A stretch of DNA of 64,000 bases from Polyodon spathula (taxonomy: Eukaryota; Chordata; Actinopteri; Acipenseriformes; Polyodontidae). A program made the translations under genes and the position numbers. Shown here piece by piece: positions 7,731-58,850 of this stretch. The stretch spans positions 21,464,976-21,528,975 of the forward strand of contig NC_054543.1 in assembly GCF_017654505.1 (NCBI RefSeq), in the 5' to 3' direction. The notes below the pieces were generated by a model. It had not been told where the DNA came from, did no database searches, and saw only the letters and a program-made list of their open reading frames with translations. Position 1 is the stretch's first letter; every line of letters begins with the position of its first letter.

Positions 7731-9613
7731 GAACATAAGAAAATAAGAAAGTTTACAAACGAGAGGAGGCCATTCGGCCCATCTTGCTCATTTGGTTGTT
7801 AGTAGCTTATTGATCCCAAAATCTCATCAAGCAGCTTCTTGAAGGATCCCAGGGTGTCAGCTTCAATAACATTACTGAGGAGTTGATTCCAGACCCTCAC
7901 AATTCTCTGTGTAAAAAAGTGCCTCCTATTTTCTGTTCTGAATACCCCTTTGTCTAAACTCCATTTGTGACCCCTGGTCCTTGTTTCTTTTTTCAGGCTG
8001 AAAAAGTCCCTTGGGTCGACACTGTCAATACCTTCTAGAATTTTGAATGCTTGAATTAGGTCGCCACGTAGTTTTCTTTGTTCAAGACTGAACAGATTCA
8101 ATTCTTTTAGCCTGTCTGCATATGACATGCCTTTTAAGCCCGGAATAATTCTGGTCGCTCTTCTTTGCACTATTTCTAGAGCAGCAATATCTTTTTTATA
8201 GCGAGGTGACCAGAACTGAACACAATATTCAAGATGAAGTCTTACTAGTGCATTGTACAGTTTTAACATTACTTCCCTTGATTTAAATTCAACACTTTTC
8301 ACAATGTATCCGAGCATCTTGTTGGCCTTTTTTATAGCTTCCCCACATTGTCTAGATGAAGACATTTCTGAGTCAACAAAAACTCCTAGGTCTTTTTCAT
8401 AGATTCCTTCTCCAATTTCAGTATCTCCCATATGATATTTATAATGTACATTTTTATTTCCTGTGTGCAGTACCTTACACTTTTCTCTATTAAATGTCAT
8501 TTGCCATGTGTCTGCCCAGTTCTGAATCTTGTCTAGATCATTTTGAATGACCTTTGCTGCTGCAACAGTGTTTGCCACTTCTCCTATTTTTGTGTCTTCT
8601 GCAAATTTAACAAGTTTGCTTACTATACCAGAATCTAAATCATTAATGTAGATTAGGAATAGCAGAGGACCTAATACTGATCCCTGTGGTACACCGCTGG
8701 TTACCACACTCCATTCTGAGGTTTTTCCTCTAATCAGTACTTTCTGTTTTCTACATGTTAACCGCTCCCTAATCCATGTACATCTGTTTCCTTGAATCCC
8801 AACTGTGTTCAGTTTGAGAATTAATCTTTTGTGCGGGACTTTGTCAAAAGCTTTCTGGAAATCTAAATAAACCATGTCATATGCTTTGCAATTATCCATT
8901 ATCGATGTTGCATCCTCAAAAAAATCAAGCAAGTTAGTTAGACACGATCTCCCTTTCCTAAAACCATGTTGACTGTCTCCCAGGACCCTGTTACCATATA
9001 GGTAATTTTCCATTTTGGATCTTATTATAGTATCCATAAGTTTGCATATAATAGAAGTCAGGCTTACTGGTCTGTAGTTACCTGGTTCAGTTTTGTTTCC
9101 CTTTTTGTGGATCGGTATTACATTTGCAATTTTCCAGTCTGTCGGTACCACCCCTGTGTCAAGAGACTGCTGCATGATCTTGGTTAGCGGTTTGTAAATT
9201 ACTTCTTTCATTTCTTTGAGTACTACTGGGAGGATCTCATCCGGCCCAGGGGATTTGTTTATTTTAAGAGCTCCTAGTCCCTTTAACACTTCTGCCTCAG
9301 TTATGCTAAAGTTATTTAAAACTGGATAGGAACTGGATGACATGTGAGGCATGTTGTCAGTATCTTCCTTTGTAAAAACTTGTGAAAAGTAATCATTTAA
9401 TGTATTTGCTATTTTTTTTTTCTTCATCCACGATTTTGCCATTTGTATCTCTTAAACATTTAATCTCCTCTTTGAATGTTCGCTTGCTGTTGTAATATTG
9501 GAAAAACATTTTGGAATTGGTTTTAGCTCCCTTAGCAATGTTCATTTCTATTTCTCTCTTGGCCTTTCTAACTTCCTTTTTGACTTGCGTTTCCAGTTCT
9601 GTGTACTCTTTCT
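7731..9613 (-). mobile_element. CR1-like LINE copy 1, 5' truncated
   Basis: On the minus strand the element runs from the middle of the pol ORF to a 3' tail GTTTGTAAACTTTCTTAT ending in TTATGTTC. It lacks the endonuclease half, the usual result of incomplete reverse transcription. GCATAA at 7725-7730 and 9614-9619 flanks it, and family X copy B has a single GCATAA at the matching place (26265-26270), so the insertion is defined by an empty site. The minus-strand frame at 9393-9617 supplies more N-terminal sequence in another frame. Confidence 0.9.
7799..9442 (-). CDS. CR1-like reverse transcriptase, partial
   Basis: A 547-residue frame covers the RT domain and C-terminus of a CR1-type ORF2. 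The enzyme would copy its own RNA at a nicked target site. Visible motifs are INKSPGPDEI and GNYRPVSLTSI in the N-terminal part, the palm block VYLDFQKAFDKVPH, SGVPQGSVLGPLLFLIYIND, and a C-terminal block with EQRKLRGDLIQAFKIL and VRVWNQLLSN. The catalytic box reads FAEDTK instead of FADDTK, so one of the paired aspartates is replaced by glutamate. The N-terminal endonuclease is missing, so the chosen methionine is not a native start. It is a dead copy. Confidence 0.9.
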   Translation of the reverse strand: MAKSWMKKKKIANTLNDYFSQVFTKEDTDNMPHMSSSSYPVLNNFSITEAEVLKGLGALKINKSPGPDEILPVVLKEMKEVIYKPLTKIMQQSLDTGVVPTDWKIANVIPIHKKGNKTEPGNYRPVSLTSIICKLMDTIIRSKMENYLYGNRVLGDSQHGFRKGRSCLTNLLDFFEDATSIMDNCKAYDMVYLDFQKAFDKVPHKRLILKLNTVGIQGNRCTWIRERLTCRKQKVLIRGKTSEWSVVTSGVPQGSVLGPLLFLIYINDLDSGIVSKLVKFAEDTKIGEVANTVAAAKVIQNDLDKIQNWADTWQMTFNREKCKVLHTGNKNVHYKYHMGDTEIGEGIYEKDLGVFVDSEMSSSRQCGEAIKKANKMLGYIVKSVEFKSREVMLKLYNALVRLHLEYCVQFWSPRYKKDIAALEIVQRRATRIIPGLKGMSYADRLKELNLFSLEQRKLRGDLIQAFKILEGIDSVDPRDFFSLKKETRTRGHKWSLDKGVFRTENRRHFFTQRIVRVWNQLLSNVIEADTLGSFKKLLDEILGSISY

Positions 9614-10379: not shown

Positions 10380-12003
10380 CCAGGGGCGATTGTACTAAAC
10401 GTGTCTGATCGTGGATCCAGGCTCCGATCTTGATCCTATTAAATATTGGGTTGCACTAAAAGGATCAGAGCTGATCTTGAGCTTAGTTTCGGCTCAATCT
10501 GCCCCTATTTCGATCTTAGTTCAGACCAAGATCAGAGTGGGATCAGAGCTTCATTGAATGTTTTATAAATGGAGAAATTAAATGTTTTTAGTTTTGAGCA
10601 AAGGAATAAACAACATAATGTATTTTGTCAGGTCAATAACATATCATGGCCCAGTAGACCTGACTGAGTGACCATGCCTCATAACTAAATATTGTTAGAC
10701 ACTTTGTGTGTTGACAAAGTCATACTGTCGTGTAGCAGGGCAGCAGGAGAGAAGCCCTGCACATGTTTTGGTATGTAAAACAAATGTCTAGTTTGTTTAT
10801 TTTAGCCTGAAAGGGAGGAGCTGGTGCATCCTCAGCCCAAGAGGGAGTAGGCCGAACGTCCACAGCCCACGTCTCCAGCAGCAGAGGAAGAATACCTGCT
10901 GGTTCTGCCTCCATCTCCATGGGGGAGGACTGCTTGCCGCTCCCATCTCCACCAGCAGAGGGAGAGTGCCTTCTGCTTCCGCCTCCACCACCCAAAGCAG
11001 AAAAAGACCTGCTGTGCCATATCCACCAGCAGAGAGAGCAAACTGCTGGTCCCCCCACTGCAGCCAGAAGGGGAGGACCCCCTGCCGCCTTCACAGCCAG
11101 AAGGGGAGGAGCAGCAGGAGTTGCCTCTGTCTCCACCACCGCCAGGGCGAGAAAAGCAGGATCTGCCTCTCCCTGCACCTCAAGAAGGACCAGGACAGAA
11201 TGCTGGCAGTCCTCAGCAGCCCCTGCATATGCTTCTGAGTGGAACATGGGGGAAAACCGCCCGGCTGCAGCGGCCATGAAGAGGGTCAACCCCAGCACCC
11301 CAACTAGTCCTGATTCCTTCACCAGGTGAAGAAGTGGAGCTCCCACTGCTGTCTTCATGGCCAAGGGCTCCCCTCCCGCCATCACCTCTCTAGGGTCCAT
11401 TGTCGCCTCCCAAGGGTCCGCTGCCTCCCAAGGGTGCCTGCCTTGCACTGCTGGGAGATGCCACGTCCACATCGCCTGGGCTTGTCTGCTTCGCCTGAGG
11501 ATGTTTGCTGTGCCGCTCTGCCTGGGAGAGCTGTTTCTGTTGTGTCTCCTAGGGTTACTACTGTTCCCGCTTCGCCTGGGGTCGCTGATGGTCCTGCATG
11601 GCAGCTGGAAATACTGTGGCTAGAGCCCCACAGAGGAGAGCTGCCAGTCATGAAAGGTGGGGGGGGGGGGGTGTCAGGAGACCAGGACCCCCCGCAGAAT
11701 GTTTTGTTATTTAAATAAATGGCACACACCACGTCTTTTTGCCCTGCAGTACTGCAGTTTCTTCCCGCTTCTGGCCTGATGTCAATTGGCTACCCTGTCA
11801 CATGCCGTTATCATTTTATCGATTACAATTAAATCATTGGTTTAATCTGATTGAACACTATGTTTCGGTCAATTCTTTTTTTTCTTAATGATCTTACCTT
11901 CTCCGACAGCCTTGATCTCCCCCTGTCCACAACATTTTTCTAATGGCAGTCAGCATCAGACCTTGATCTAATTTTATCAAAATGTGTTGATATTTTGCCC
12001 TGA
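10380..12003. mobile_element. Harbinger-like element with distant inverted ends
   Basis: The left end CAGGGGCGATTGTACTAAAC resembles the reverse complement of the right end, CAGGGCAAAATATCAACAC, and both are followed by GATC-rich sequence. Such GGGGC ends suit PIF/Harbinger elements. No matching 3-bp target duplication was found, and the interior is mostly the LTR element at 10727-11810. It is probably a non-autonomous Harbinger hit by a later LTR insertion. Confidence 0.35.
10727..11810 (+). mobile_element. Short LTR retroelement with Pro/Glu-rich spacer
   Basis: TGTCGTGTAGCAGGG at 10727 and TGTCAGGAGACCAGGACC at about 11672 may be the starts of two short related LTRs; both are followed by a GCA-ATGTTTTG block. 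A long G run at about 11657-11671, just before the second LTR, fits a polypurine tract. Between them, 10870-11330 codes proline/glutamate-rich repeats (for example PPAEGE and LLPPPPPKAE) shared with the element at 56107-57020. No protease or RT is present, so it would depend on another element. The 3' border is approximate. Confidence 0.45.
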
Positions 12004-23418: not shown

Positions 23419-24078
23419 TGCTTTGTTTGTGGGAAGTTCAGGCACGAAGTGGGGCGCTGTCCCCATCAAGAGGGAGAGAAGCTGTCTGCCCGAAAGCGAA
23501 AGTGGAAGAGGGGCGGCCATCCCCGAAGGCAAACACAGGAGGCAGCTCCGTCCCCACCACCTGAGAGGGTGATGCTGCTAGCCCGACTGCAATGGAGAGA
23601 GGAGCTGCTGCAAGTGCCAGCTATTTCAGTGTCTCCTGCACAGTTCTTGAGCAGGGAACAGGAGTGGTGTCAGCTGCCAGTGAAACCCTCTAGCCCCCAG
23701 CACGCACCAGCCCTTTCAAGGGCTCCTGCAAAGGGTGTGAGCAGGGAGCAGGAGCGGCGACAGCCACCAGTGCAACCCTCTATCCCCCAGAAAGCACCAG
23801 CCCTTTCAAGGGCTCCTGCCAAGGGGAGTGAGGTGAGAGCAGGAGCAGGATGGCCGACACTACAACCTGACTGCCCAGCGCCACCGCCTGACTGCACTGA
23901 GCCACGCCTGACTGCCCAGCGGCGCCGTCTGACTGCCCAGCACCGCCGCCTGACTGCACTGAGCCACCGTCTGACTGCCCAGCGGCGCCGTCTGACTGCC
24001 CAGCACTGCCACCTGACTGCACTGAGCCACCGTCTGACTGCCCAGCACCGCCGCCTGACTGCACTGAGCCACGCCTGA
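23419..24078 (+). CDS. Short gag-like ORF: zinc knuckle plus Pro-rich tail
   Basis: The frame opens with a perfect CX2CX4HX4C zinc knuckle, CFVCGKFRHEVGRC (23419-23460), as in retrotransposon gag proteins that bind RNA. A basic stretch follows (RKRKWKRGGHPRRQ), then a proline-rich tail with two copies of an ALSRAPAKG motif. From about 23870 the tail enters the 20/21-bp minisatellite and ends there. No capsid precedes the knuckle, and no protease or RT follows, so the element is non-autonomous. The true start is uncertain; coordinates begin at the knuckle. Confidence 0.6.
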   Translation, partial: CFVCGKFRHEVGRCPHQEGEKLSARKRKWKRGGHPRRQTQEAAPSPPPERVMLLARLQWREELLQVPAISVSPAQFLSREQEWCQLPVKPSSPQHAPALSRAPAKGVSREQERRQPPVQPSIPQKAPALSRAPAKGSEVRAGAGWPTLQPDCPAPPPDCTEPRLTAQRRRLTAQHRRLTALSHRLTAQRRRLTAQHCHLTALSHRLTAQHRRLTALSHA

Positions 24079-24690
24079 CTGCACTGAGCCACGCCTGACT
24101 GCCCAGCACCGCTGTCTGACTGCACTGAGCCACGCCTGACTGCCCAGCACCGCTGTCTGACTGCACTGAGCCACGCCTGACTGCACTGAGCCACGCCTGA
24201 CTGCCCAGCACCGCCGCCTGACTGCACTGAGCCACGCCTGACTGCACTGAGCCACGCCTGACTGCCCAGCACCGCTGTCTGACTGCCCAGCACCGCCGCC
24301 TGACTGCACTGAGCCACGCCTGACTGCCCAGCGCCGCCGTCTGACTGCCCAGCACTGCCGCCTGACTGCACGGAGCCACCGTCTGACTGCCCAGCGCCGT
24401 CGCCTGACTGCATGGAGCCCCTACCTGACTGCCCATCGCCACCTCCTGACTGTCCAGCACCACCGCCTGACTGCCCAGCGCCGCCGCCTGACTGCCTGGA
24501 GCAGCCGTCTGACTTCCCATCGGCGCTGCATGAGTGCCAAGCGCAACCGCCTGACTGCCAAGCGCAACCGCCTGACTGCCCAGTGCAGCCGCCTGACTGC
24601 ACAGAGCCATTGCCTGACTGTCCAGCGCCACCTCCTGACTGCCCATCGCCACTGCCTGACTGCCCAGCGCCGCCGCCGTTTTCTTATGTA
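23865..24690. repeat. 20/21-bp minisatellite inside the gag-like ORF
   Basis: Repeats of CTGACTGCCCAGCACCGC plus three bases (21 bp) alternate with CTGACTGCACTGAGCCACGC (20 bp). The 21-bp form keeps the frame (PDC and APP motifs), while each 20-bp form shifts it by one. Long artefact frames therefore appear on both strands (GQSGG-, LGSQ- and AVRRR-rich peptides). More diverged units continue to about 24680. Confidence 0.9.
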
Positions 24691-46634: not shown

Positions 46635-46850
46635 TTATATTGCTGCCAGGTATACCTTCAAAGTGGATGCTGATTTTCTTGTGTTAAACAAGTGTTGTAA
46701 GAAGGTTAATATTGTCTCAATAGGGCAAGTCACAGGATCATGACCTTCGGCAAGGCACCAGTCTTGGAAAACCTTCCATTTATATAAGTACTGGGTTCTA
46801 GTGCTCGGCGCCCTAGCAGACTGTAGTGTTTCTACTACTGCATCTGGCAA
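46635..46850 (-). pseudogene. DIRS tyrosine recombinase, N-terminal core-binding part only
   Basis: The frame has APSTRTQYLYKWKVFQDWC, then an ILTFLQHLF block and ASTLKVYLAAI, matching the SAM-like core-binding domain at the start of DIRS/Ngaro recombinases. The catalytic half with its Arg-His-Arg-Tyr residues should follow on the minus strand at 46400-46634, but that stretch shows no such motif. The catalytic domain appears deleted, leaving this part next to the terminal repeats. Confidence 0.7.
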
Positions 46851-46853
46851 ACC

Positions 46854-48642
46854 TCATCTGAATAGACGGCTCTGTTCAACGGCAAGACCCAGAGTTGGAG
46901 CTGGGCTGGGTTCGGGTGCCATAGTAGCCCCTCTGCTTGGCTCAGGAGGTCCTTGCACAGTGGGAATTGCCACGGCTGATCCGGCAAAATGTCGGAGAGG
47001 AGAGCAAACCAGGGGCGTCTCGGCCATCTGGGTGCAGCCAGCAAAACTTGAGCTCTCTCCACCCTGATCCTCTCTAGTGTCAAGGGTAATAATGGTAGTG
47101 TAGGGAATGCATACAATAGCCCCTGTGGCCAGGGTTGAGCTAGTGCGTATACTCCCAGGGAGCCCCCGTCTCTCTCCATGGAGAACCATAGGGGCCAATG
47201 ACTGGACTCGGCTGTGGCAAAGAGGTCTACTCGTGCAAGTCGAAACCTCTCCCAAATCTGTTTCACCACTGCAGCCTCCACTCCGAGCTGTCTGGAGCTC
47301 TTCTGGACAGGATCTGCTGCCTTGTTGTCCACACAGGGGGAAGTGAACTGCTCTGGATGCAAGTTTCTGTGCATCCAGGACAGGAGTCTGTGCGCTTCAT
47401 GGTGAAGGCCCAGTGAGCACCGGCTGCCTTGTTGATTTACAGTATGTAGGCTACCACTGTGGTATTGTCCGTCCAGACCAGCACATGTTTGTGACATAAT
47501 TGTTGGTGAAAATAGGATAACGTCAGACTCACTGCTTGCAGCTCCTTCCACTGGCCTCTTATTCCTCTCCCATTCCAGACCACTCCCCAGCCCAGGCTGG
47601 AGGCATCTGTAGTGACCACTTCCCTTCTGTGGGGGGATCCGAGGGGAGATCCAAGGTGCAGATTGTCGGGATGGAGCCACCACTGCAGTGTCTTCCGGCA
47701 TTGTCTATACACTCGCACCAGCTGGTACCGAGCTCGGACCAGGTGTACCTTGAGCGTATTTACCCTGGTTTGAAGCAGGCATCTTCTCAGCAGCTCTAGT
47801 GGAAGGATTCTCAAGGTGGCTGTCATCACCCCCAACAACCTTTGATATACTTTGACCTGTAGGAGAGAGTCCTCTCAGAATAGGGAGAGTGTGGCCTCCA
47901 ACAACCGAATCCTGTCTTCCGACAGTGAGGCAAGCATGCTCACAGAGTTCAGTTTGATCCTCAGGAACACTGTGGACTGAGACGGTATGAAGTTGCTCTT
48001 CTGTTGATGTATTGAGAGCCTTAACTTCATCACATGATCTATGACCTGTTTTGTCTGCGCCTCTGCGCGTGCTTTTGAATGTGCGCAAACTAACCAATCG
48101 TCCAGATAGTTTAGGATCCGAATACCCTGCAGCCTGACTGGAGCCAGTGCTGCATCCATGCACTTTGAAAATGCATGGGGTTCCAGCGACAGGCCAAATG
48201 GCAGCATGCAGAATATGTAAGCACTGCCTTGAAAGGCGAAGCGCAGATTTTTTCTGTGCGTGGGACGGATCGGGATGTGAAAGTAGGCGTCTTGCAGGTC
48301 GATCAATGTGAACCAGTCGCCCGGTTGGACGGACTGGATGATATGCTGTGCTGTCAACATGTTGAACTTCCTCTGTTTGAGGAACAAGTTGAGGACCCTG
48401 AGGTCCAGAATTGGTCTGAAATCACTGTTCATTTTGGGCACCAGGAAGTACCTGGAGTAAAAGCCGCTGAGGGCATTGCTTGGACTTACCAAACGTACAG
48501 CGTTCTTCCTTTGAAGATTGGCAATCCCCTGTTGAAGGAGTATCGCTCTCGCTGGTTCGATGGAGGTAAGGAGCACACCCTTGAAGGGTGGCGGACCTAT
48601 GCGGAATTGTAGAGTGTATCCATGTCTCATTGTCAATAGCAC
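46854..48642 (-). pseudogene. DIRS reverse transcriptase-RNase H
   Basis: 47875-48642 holds the RT: LVSPSNALSGFYSRYFLVPK, then FRPILDLRVLN, FTLIDLQDAYFHIPI and FAFQGSAYIFCMLPFGL, with the catalytic box YLDDWLVCAHS intact. 47437-47838 continues in another frame with a connection segment and RNase H residues (EVVTTDASSLGWGVVWNGR and later VWTDNTTVVAYI). The C-terminal part is spread over other frames down to 46854 (SRVDLFA- and DILPDQPW-type residues). Several frameshifts inactivate it. Confidence 0.8.
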
Positions 48643-54352: not shown

Positions 54353-54438
54353 CTGTGTTTATTCCTGAAAACACCCTCTTATTTTTTCCCACAAAAGCCA
54401 TTACTTGCTCTGGGGAAAGTGTAGGTGCTATATTGACT

Positions 54439-55545: not shown

Positions 55546-56106
55546 TGTGGCAAAGTGCCCAGCCCCTGGGCTATTTATTTGTGTTGTATGTTGCGTGTAA
55601 GGTGTTAATGTTGGTGTATTGTAGTTGGTACATGGGACATAATATCGGTTATGAGCATGAGTGATTTAAAATGTATATTTGTATTTAGACACGAGGATTG
55701 CACAGCACTTCACGTGCAGGTAAAATGTAATAATATGTGAGCATGGGGAATTGCATGAATGATTAATTAGCAATCGAGTCACGGTACAGCTGCATAAAAG
55801 CAGCATGTTTTCAATCACCCGGGGTTGTGTGTTCATGAGCAGAGAACGGGTGTGGAGAGGAGAGTTAAAATAAAATAAAGAAAGAAAGAAAGAACAATTG
55901 CTAAGGCGTGCTGGAGGGCCAGCAGTGTATTTATTTGTTTAACGTTCGTCCACTTGTTTTGTCTGTTAGTATATTTTGTTTGTCTATTTATTTTGACCGC
56001 AAGTGCCTTGTCCTGTTTTGGTGTCAGTGTTTTGTTACAACCTGTTTATTTTCTGTCTGTTTACCTATTAAATGCTGAGCGCAACCAAGCTACAGCACTT
56101 CACGTA
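55546..56106 (+). mobile_element. LTR of family 1, 3' end missing
   Basis: It begins TGTGGCAAAGTGCCCAGCCC and matches the other family-1 LTRs through the CTGCATAAAAGCAGCATG block to CTATTAAATGCTGAG. At about 56106 it passes straight into the Pro/Glu-rich spacer, without LTR end, primer site or zinc knuckle. This points to a deletion. Confidence 0.75.
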
Positions 56107-57020
56107 GCTCCCATCTCCACCAGCAGAGGAAGAATGCTTGCTGATTTTGCCTCCAGAGCCAGAGGGAGAGGAGCCGTCTCCAGCACCAGAGGGAGAGGAG
56201 CCGTCGCTGCCATCTCAGGCACCAGAGGGAGAAGTCCCACCACTGTCTCCAGAGCGAGAGGGAGAAGCTCTGTTGTTCCCTGCAAATGAGGCAAGTGAGG
56301 GAGAGCCGTATCAGTCCCCTGCAAGTGAGGGAGAGCCACACCAGTCCTCTGTAACAAGGGTAGACTGCATGCAATGCATGAGGTCTTACTCCTCCATTCC
56401 CAGGAGTTAACACTACTTCTCCTGCTCCGTCGCCACTTTTCACAATGTATCTACACGCCGCTCTCCACCTACCTTTTTTATACCCAGCAGGAGCTGCCTC
56501 TTCTGAGTCCACCACTTTTTCCACCAGCAGGAGCAGAGCAGCAGGAGCTGCCTCTGCCTCCTCCACCTCCACCAGCAGAGAGAAGAATGCCTGCAGGTTT
56601 CACCTCCACCACCATGGGGAGAGTACCTGCCATTGCCTCTCCAGAGTCCCCTCCTGCCGTCACCTCCCAAGTGTCCAGCATCGGTGGGAGAAACCCTGCC
56701 AGAGGAGCTGCCACGGAGCTGCCGTTGCCTCTGCCACCTCTACAGCCAGGAGCAGAGCAGAGCTCCTAGAGCTTAACACTCTCTGCCTCCATGTGGTACC
56801 ACCTCCACCACCAGGAGCAGAGTTCATTTTAAGTTAGTCCCTTTAACTTTTTTTGCTAAGGAGCTGCCTCTGTTTCTGCCACCTCCACCAGCAGAGGGTG
56901 AATACATGCTGGGTCCACTTCCACCAGCAAGAGTGAATGCTTGCTGGTATCACTTCCCTCATCACCAACACAAGGACAGGAGCTGGAGCTGCCTCTGCCT
57001 CATCACAACTGGCTAAATGA
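56107..57020 (+). pseudogene. Pro/Glu-rich gag spacer of LTR family 1
   Basis: Repeats code for motifs such as PEGEEPS, SEGEPYQSPA and, in other frames, PPPPPAERR. Blocks such as CACCTCCACCAGCAGAG recur here and at 10870-11330. Two 30-bp units at about 56291-56350 relate to the decamer repeat at 43672-43881. No enzymatic domain is present. The frame shifts several times. Confidence 0.6.
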
Positions 57021-57233
57021 TCCTTTTAATGACTTAAAACCAAGCCAACAATATTCAAAAGCTGCACGACCTGTTTCGCTGGAACACATAGGTTAGTTAA
57101 CCAGTCTGTTCATCTGGCTTCCGGTGCATAGTTTGTTGCTAATACTCATCGAGTGGATCAGTTAACATTGTCCTCATGAAGCCGCTGACGACATAGAACA
57201 GTTTTGTTTCGTTCTAACAGACACTCCGCCCTC
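57021..57233. other. Unrecognised spacer before the 9-bp array
   Basis: No feature recognised. Confidence 0.3.
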
Positions 57234-57728
57234 GCTCTCACAGCCCTCACAGCTCTCACAGCCCTCAGAGCTCTCACAGCCCTCATTTGAGCCCTCACAG
57301 CTCTCACAGCCCTCACAGCCCTTACAGCCCTCACAGCCACCCTCACAGCCCTAGTTATTTTCTCACAGTTATCTGACAGCCTCACAGCTCACAGCCCTCA
57401 CAGCCCTCACAGCCCTCACAGCCCTCACAGCCCTCACAGCCCTCACAGCCCTCACAGCCCTCACAGCTCTCACAGCCCTCACAGCCCTCACAGCTCTCAC
57501 AGCCCTCACAGCTCCTCACAGCCCTCACAGCCCCCACAGCCCTCACAGCCCTCTCCTGGGCACAAGCCCTCACAGCCCTCACAGCCCTCCACAGCCTCAC
57601 CTGAGCCCTCACAGCCCTCACAGCCCTCACAGCCCTCACAGCCCTCACAGCCCTCACAGCCCTCACAGCCCTCACAGCCCTCACAGCCCTCACAGCCCTC
57701 ACAGCCCTCACAGAGACGGCCCTCACAG
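57234..57728. repeat. 9-bp tandem array 1 (CTCACAGCC)n
   Basis: Mostly perfect CTCACAGCC units, with CTCACAGCT variants and a few insertions. The unit lacks stop codons in five of six frames, so long low-complexity frames (HSP, SQP, LTA forward; AVR, EGC reverse) appear. They are not genes. Confidence 0.95.
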
Positions 57729-58106
57729 TGTGTCGAGAAGTGTCGGTATTCGAGGGTACGAGGGGTGGGTTGGTGTCTCGCTGAGGAAGGACGTTCAAAA
57801 CTGTCGAGGTGTCAGGTACCTTGTCCCATGGACGGTACCACGTGAGAGTTCAGGGGAGGTCGCGGAAGTGGAGGGTGCCAGGTCGTTAGTTTTGGGAGTC
57901 TCAGGAGGTGCTCGACCCCTATCATGGACGGTAGCGGAGAGATGTCGGTGGAGATCGTCGGTCTGAGAGGTAGGTGGAGCCTGTGTCCGGAGAGGGGCGG
58001 AGGACGGTGGAGGTGGTCGTATCCTTCGTATCATCGTCCTCGAGTGGAGGGAGGTGGGTGGTTTTTTTGGGGTCCGTCTCCACACGACACGGGGAAGTCA
58101 GCGTGA
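57729..58106. other. Segment matching its family only as a non-reversed complement
   Basis: If each base is complemented while keeping the order, the segment reads GTACCTGCCAT twice (at 57828-57838 and 57923-57933), plus GTCCCCTCCAGC, TTCACCTCCCA and CCACCTCCACCAGCA. These align in order with 56575-56700, which reads GAGTACCTGCCATTGCC, AGTCCCCTCCTGC, GTCACCTCCCA and CACCTCCACCAGCAG. Neither the direct nor the reverse-complement reading gives this match. Normal orientation returns at 58107 (TGGTATCACTTCCC, as at 56945). Confidence 0.7.
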
Positions 58107-58120
58107 TGGTATCACTTCCC

Positions 58121-58850
58121 AGCCCTCACAGCCCTCACTGCCCTGCCTCAGCCCTCACAGCCCTCACAGCCCTCACAGCCCTCACAGCCCTCACAGCTCT
58201 CACAGCCCTCACAGCCCTCCCAGCTCTCACAGCCCTCACAGCCCTCACAGCCCTCACAGCCCTCACAGCCCTCACAGCCCTCACAGCCCTCACAGCCCTC
58301 ACAGCCCTCACAGCCCTCGGTTTCTGGCCACCCCCACCAGAGAGGTGAGATACATGCCCTCACAGCCAGCACAGCCCTCACAGCTCTCACAGCCCTCACA
58401 GCCCTCACAGCCCTCACAGCCCTCACAGCCCTCACAGCCCTCACAGCCCTCACAGCCCTCACAGCCCTCACAGCCCTCACAGCCCTCACAGCCCTCACAG
58501 CTCTCACAGCCCTCACAGCTCTCACAGCCCTCACAGCTCTCACAGCCCTCACAGCCCTCACAGCCCTCACAGCACAGCCCTCACAGCCCTCACAGCCCTC
58601 ACAGCCCTCACAGCCCTCACAGCCCTCACAGCCCTCACAGCCCTCGCTCTCACAGCCCTCTCACAGCCCTCACAGCCCTCACAGCCCTCACAGCCCTCAC
58701 AGCTCTCACAGCCCTCACAGCCCTCACAGCCCTCACAGCTCTCACAGTTCTCACAGCCCTCAGAGCCCTCACAGCTCTCACAGCTCTCACAGCCCTCACA
58801 GCCCTCACAGCTCTCACAGCTCTCACAGCCTTCACAGCTCTCAGCTCCAA
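58121..58850. repeat. 9-bp tandem array 2 (CTCACAGCC)n
   Basis: The same 9-bp unit as array 1, longer, with interruptions at about 58318-58365 and 58575. It begins directly after the TGGTATCACTTCCC block. Confidence 0.95.

Follow-up and report, generated by a model that had tools for sequence, protein, structure and literature searches.

Short, indel-rich patches in which a known repeat is written as its plain complement, with left-to-right order kept, recur in the genome assembly of the paddlefish Polyodon spathula, where they match 55 to 802 bp of a repeat that we take to be a LINE. One such patch occupies positions 57729 to about 58100 of the 64,000-nucleotide stretch analysed here (the window; G000:C10:21464976-21528975) and, judging from its letters and those of its relatives, is almost certainly an artefact of assembly. 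The segment at 57729-58106 is therefore most likely not a biological feature, and what makes it useful is that it flags an assembly error which recurs and is simple to test for.

Results

A segment that matches its own repeat family after complementing

The original prediction held that the segment 57729-58106, lying between two 9-bp arrays, is related to the spacer of its own repeat family by complement without reversal. Both points were borne out. Arrays were detected at 57237-57713 and 58120-58843, and in local alignment the plain complement of the segment scored 88 against the normal spacer copies at 56107-57020, where 200 dinucleotide shuffles of that complement gave a mean of 23.7 (SD 2.6, maximum 34). 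The direct, reverse and reverse-complement versions scored 20, 20 and 24, respectively, each within the range of its own shuffles, and the four-version alignment that had been proposed as a check thus came out in favour of the complement. A second reference, 10870-11420, was only marginally informative, because the complement score of 33 there barely tops the shuffle maximum of 32 (mean 22.9, SD 2.7); the other versions scored 18-21. When all 24 base permutations were applied in both directions and aligned to 56000-57236, complement-forward stood on top of the 48 transformations with 88 (z about 25), and the runner-up scored 35 (z 4.7), a little more than the best of its own 50 shuffles (30).

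The collinear course of the complement match was as originally described, but its extent of roughly 110 bp proved too short. The main alignment, after complementing, carries 57760-57963 onto 56558-56749 with 154 identities, 22 mismatches and 44 gap columns in 22 gap events, and a further block carries 57988-58057 onto 56550-56613 (score 50, direct 20). The limits of the segment likewise held at one end and not at the other. Scoring of 18-mers against the 9-bp array showed the direct reading giving way to the complemented one at about 57724-57732, so that the flip starts within array sequence, near the predicted 57729; at 57728 the array match scores 20 in the complemented reading and 4 in the direct one, and from about 57728 to 57746 the letters are array-like only after complementing. 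At the other end, the complement match stops at 58057. Direct matching is back from 58101 on, where 58101-58120 aligns with 56939-56958, and the last bases up to 58106 are therefore already direct. The switches are abrupt, here as at the LINE loci described below, with the left one near 57729 and the right one resolved only within 43 bases. Once its letters are complemented, the region reads array, spacer, array, as does its neighbourhood. The exchange of A<->T and C<->G without reversal, which is of the swinger type, is found both in this patch and in the LINE patches.

Table 1. Features of the window that bear on the complemented segment (window positions; "." where no strand applies)
Feature	Positions	Strand	Basis
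Left 9-bp array (CTCACAGCC)n, direct, with interruptions	57237..57728	+	array detection 57237-57713; direct reading lost at about 57724-57732
Left flip junction, array-like only if complemented	57729..57746	.	array scores at 57728
Repeat spacer in plain complement, collinear with 56558-56749	57760..57963	.	alignments
Repeat spacer in plain complement, further block, matching 56550-56613	57988..58057	.	score 50
No clear match in either reading; flip ends inside	58058..58100	.	complement ends 58057, direct starts 58101
Direct spacer match to 56939-56958, normal reading back	58101..58120	+	score 30 direct versus 16 complemented
Right 9-bp array, direct; direct spacer-like interruption at about 58320-58365 (by eye)	58120..58843	+	
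Normal direct spacer-family copies, used as reference	56107..57020	+	direct matches to 10864-10987 and within itself
Presumed LINE fragment with RT-like reading frame; first 1379 bases used as genome-wide probe	7732..9429	-	

Recurrence in unrelated sequence of the same assembly

We searched the whole assembly of 1,541,705,134 bases with the plain complement of window positions 7732-9110, which are 1379 bases of the LINE fragment and unrelated to the spacer. This probe gave at least 43 matches, with E-values from 7.2e-68 to 5.7e-7 and identities of 72-92%, and these 43 were 55 to 802 bp long with a median of 129; the count is a lower bound because only 40 of the 61 candidates were scored. When the exchange A<->G, C<->T was applied to these LINE bases instead, no candidates came back from the assembly, an empty answer that proves nothing by itself, and the unchanged bases returned 4259, of which 40 were scored and all 40 matched. 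An artefact would be expected to recur in unrelated sequence of the same assembly, and 43 matches for the LINE probe against 0 for the control permutation are indeed what was found, with this one probe and one control permutation as the basis for genome-wide recurrence.

A rough extrapolation puts the number of complement patches genome-wide at about 1,600. This figure is based on the 43 matches and on 20 sampled loci, treats the LINE as typical and the 20 loci as representative, and may be low (21 of the 61 candidates were unscored) or high (repeats may be more error-prone). The LINE covers 5131 of the 190,792 non-N bases in the sampled loci, and no LINE complement was present among those bases.

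For self-comparison, the window was combined with the same 20 loci, one from each of C1-C20 at 5.0 Mb, to give 264,000 bases, of which 9,208 are N. Mirror-type self-matches aside, the sole plain-complement match to pass an entropy filter in this set was the patch at 57729-58106. Reverse-only self-matches (L020, L004, L017 and L011, and the reverse match between L005 and L011) were set aside after six stretches had been read, as these proved to be self-mirroring CT-rich, AAT-like and other short-unit repeats. Within the window, BLAST with the entropy filter yielded one further complex match among the 40 highest-entropy of 1879, an imperfect mirror at 54357-54407. It spans 51 bp at 80%, is not a simple repeat and is possibly due to chance, since mirrors have half the independent positions.

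Searches of the whole genome with the segment itself were less productive. As written, 57729-58106 matches only itself, and its 378 bases after complementing match two other places, over 57 and 55 bp (E 3.5e-6 and 1.2e-5). These lie at G000:C15:33103832-33103888 and G000:C17:15178163-15178217, and both match one part (270-329) of the complemented segment. The complemented search was not sensitive, because the spacer copy that the window itself has at 56558-56749 was missed. For the 9-bp array, its plain complement was found at 15 places elsewhere, only with 2 mismatches, and this we count against the artefact reading.

Patches within LINE copies

Ten loci were compared in detail, namely the nine whose matches had the lowest E-values, and C61, where there are three matches, and together they contain 13 patches. 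One patch per locus (10 of the 13) was subjected to the 48 transformations, and in all ten only the plain complement, or the plain reverse, which is the equivalent version for minus-strand copies of the LINE, gave a score (180-458, with any other version at 32 or below). Twelve of the 13 patches share their locus with normal LINE sequence, there being none in the fetched locus of L039, and 11 of these 12 lie on the same strand as the normal LINE. Only the second patch of L040 departs from this, being opposite to the normal stretch there.

In several loci the patch sits where the corresponding part of the LINE belongs. At L041 (which includes 369 N), L043 and L045 the order is normal, complement, normal, and on either side of the patch the LINE positions carry on to within about 15 bases; in L043 the left-hand junction is collinear only by way of a 68-column match beside an out-of-order one. 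At L040, L046 and L048 the LINE position continues at one edge of a patch at least, and at L042 and L047 the patches are not collinear with normal LINE. L044 is of another kind: its patch, which covers LINE positions 318-501, is not a replacement but an extra insertion between contiguous normal stretches 2-270 and 271-1320. The cases of L039, L042, L044 and L047, the opposite-strand patch of L040 and the left edge of L043 weigh against the artefact reading. The longest patch (802 bp), like the opposite-strand one, is in L040 (G000:C2586:14000-17600), on a contig of 38,347 bases, and in L048 (G000:C61:36000-39400) three complement patches are crowded into about 1.3 kb of LINE sequence, the normal parts of which are noisy too.

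An error profile unlike that of the surroundings

Uncorrected PacBio long reads have an indel-rich error profile, and that of the patches is like it. Over 3731 columns the LINE patches showed 6.70 gap openings per 100 columns and 1.59 mismatches per gap opening, whereas the normal LINE sequence of the same loci, over 6794 columns, showed 1.24 and 6.24, respectively. The latter tally omits seven short normal matches (42 columns in L040, 51 in L042, 68 in L043, 76 in L046, 59 and 40 in L047, and 58 in L048); with all normal matches kept, 7188 columns contain 49 extra and 44 missing events, or 1.29 per 100. In the patches extra bases outnumber missing ones, with 156 versus 94 events. L044 shows the contrast within one locus: 1336 columns of normal sequence hold 2 gap openings at 96% identity, and the 193 columns of its patch hold 11 at 86%. 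Some normal stretches are noisy as well, those of L046 and L048 reaching 4.2 and 3.7 openings per 100 columns, and this also weighs against the artefact reading. The spacer behaves in the same way, its two complement blocks having 10.0 and 7.0 gap events per 100 columns against 0 to 5.4 in four direct comparisons within the family. Evolution fails to explain the contrast between patch and normal sequence, because parts of one copy should share one age; the profile is that of uncorrected reads and argues for an artefact. A data-handling or consensus error had been suggested at the outset, and recurrence in an unrelated repeat, the empty result for the control permutation, strand agreement in most patches and indel richness together strongly support that suggestion.

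Discussion

Real copying is antiparallel and gives reverse complements, whereas software performs reversal and complementing as separate halves of one operation. We propose that a step handling uncorrected PacBio stretches may have carried out only half of the reverse complement when orientating some of them, either reversing a minus-strand read without complementing it or complementing a plus-strand read without reversing it. Stretches half-orientated in this way would have entered the backbone or the consensus, and would there read as the plain complement relative to their flanks. Polishing would presumably leave the raw errors within them, because no read would match them. The likeliest stage would be DBG2OLC together with its consensus step, and this choice of stage is far less certain than the artefact reading itself. 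DBG2OLC is described as working from uncompressed long reads, which it lays out and patches in succession before a consensus is taken, and Sparc, the consensus module named for it, builds a graph that starts from that backbone. The paddlefish genome paper describes an assembly of 1.54 Gb that began with Platanus, used DBG2OLC for joining with PacBio reads, and went through Pilon polishing, scaffolding with SSPACE-LongRead and SSPACE, gap filling with GapCloser and GapFiller, a second polishing and ordering by Hi-C (PMC8042750); the reads carry the accessions PRJNA484687 / CNP0000867 (PMC8042750).

The main alternative to the DBG2OLC stage is also an artefact, and we regard it as possible but rather doubtful. 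A post-assembly script that orientated scaffolds or gap fills may have complemented upper-case letters only, which would leave lower-case stretches reversed but uncomplemented wherever the scaffold was on the minus strand. As analysed here, the window is upper case throughout. Such a script would yield in-place plain complements with sharp edges, and both gap filling and an AGP file with directions belong to the published pipeline (PMC8042750). By itself, however, it gives no account of the extra insertion at L044. The indel-rich letters of the patches are also left unaccounted for, because GapCloser and GapFiller are usually run on short reads.

Whichever step was responsible, an assembly artefact of this kind has partial parallels. 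Hybrid assemblies are subject to unpolished long-read residue and to local misassembly, and the paddlefish patches resemble these in being short, indel-rich stretches inside repeats. Ordinary residue, however, has the right letters or their true reverse complement, whereas the paddlefish patches are complement only. Among the papers listed by a literature search for complement-only assembly errors or nuclear swinger DNA, mostly outside subscription journals, none looked from its title and the opening of its abstract like a description of such errors; the list did include the swinger papers.

We consider it very improbable that the patches are real swinger DNA, in which a polymerase would swap its A<->T and C<->G pairing for a few hundred bases and then revert. 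To our knowledge no enzyme mechanism for this is accepted, the patches are far more indel-rich than the normal LINE of the same loci despite two Pilon polishings, and the one other permutation searched genome-wide (A<->G, C<->T) gave nothing; that fish nuclear DNA should hold hundreds to thousands of short polymerase-made A<->T, C<->G stretches with left-to-right order kept is hardly credible. The form of the patches is nevertheless that of abrupt A<->T + C<->G switches embedded in regular DNA, as Seligmann describes them (PMC4942731). According to that paper, the 16S rRNA gene of the Kamimuria wangi mitogenome is A<->T + C<->G swinger DNA, this was the only exchange detected in DNA up to then, and some swinger reads may be produced by unknown sequencing artifacts (PMC4942731). 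The mitogenome paper itself reports cloned PCR products, BigDye sequencing and assembly with ContigExpress and DNAMAN (PMC3900512). As these papers describe it, the Kamimuria wangi case is like the paddlefish patches in being complement without reversal, with abrupt switches and regular sequence around it, and unlike them in being a whole mitochondrial gene from PCR clones, whereas the patches are short and rich in indels and sit in nuclear repeats, in an assembly from long reads. Our results suggest that exactly the swinger signature can arise in an assembly, the error profile speaking against real DNA. If the artefact reading is right, it also offers a plain explanation that could be tested for the published swinger DNA: the sole exchange that had been reported in DNA is the one performed by software.

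Two further readings can be dismissed. One, that CT-rich sequence matched by chance or through low complexity, for which it could be said that both sequences are CT- or GA-rich and repetitive and that one other permutation exceeded its own shuffles (35 versus 30), is ruled out by dinucleotide shuffles that reached at most 34 against 88 and by the other 47 transformations, none of which passed 35. The four-version test equally rules out an ordinary inversion or a templated insertion of another repeat copy, prone to rearrangement as repeats and arrays are, since the former would give a reverse complement (24) and the latter a direct or reverse-complement copy (20 and 24), all of them at shuffle level.

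If the artefact reading is true, a chromosome-level reference genome holds many short stretches of sequence that does not exist. Complement-only copies of a known repeat would then provide a simple test for the same error in other assemblies.

Two other features of the window were noted in passing. About 39 copies of a 21-bp unit at 23866-24677 have long open frames on both strands, and at 46835-48642 the minus strand carries RT-like open frames of an element that we presume to resemble the DIRS type.
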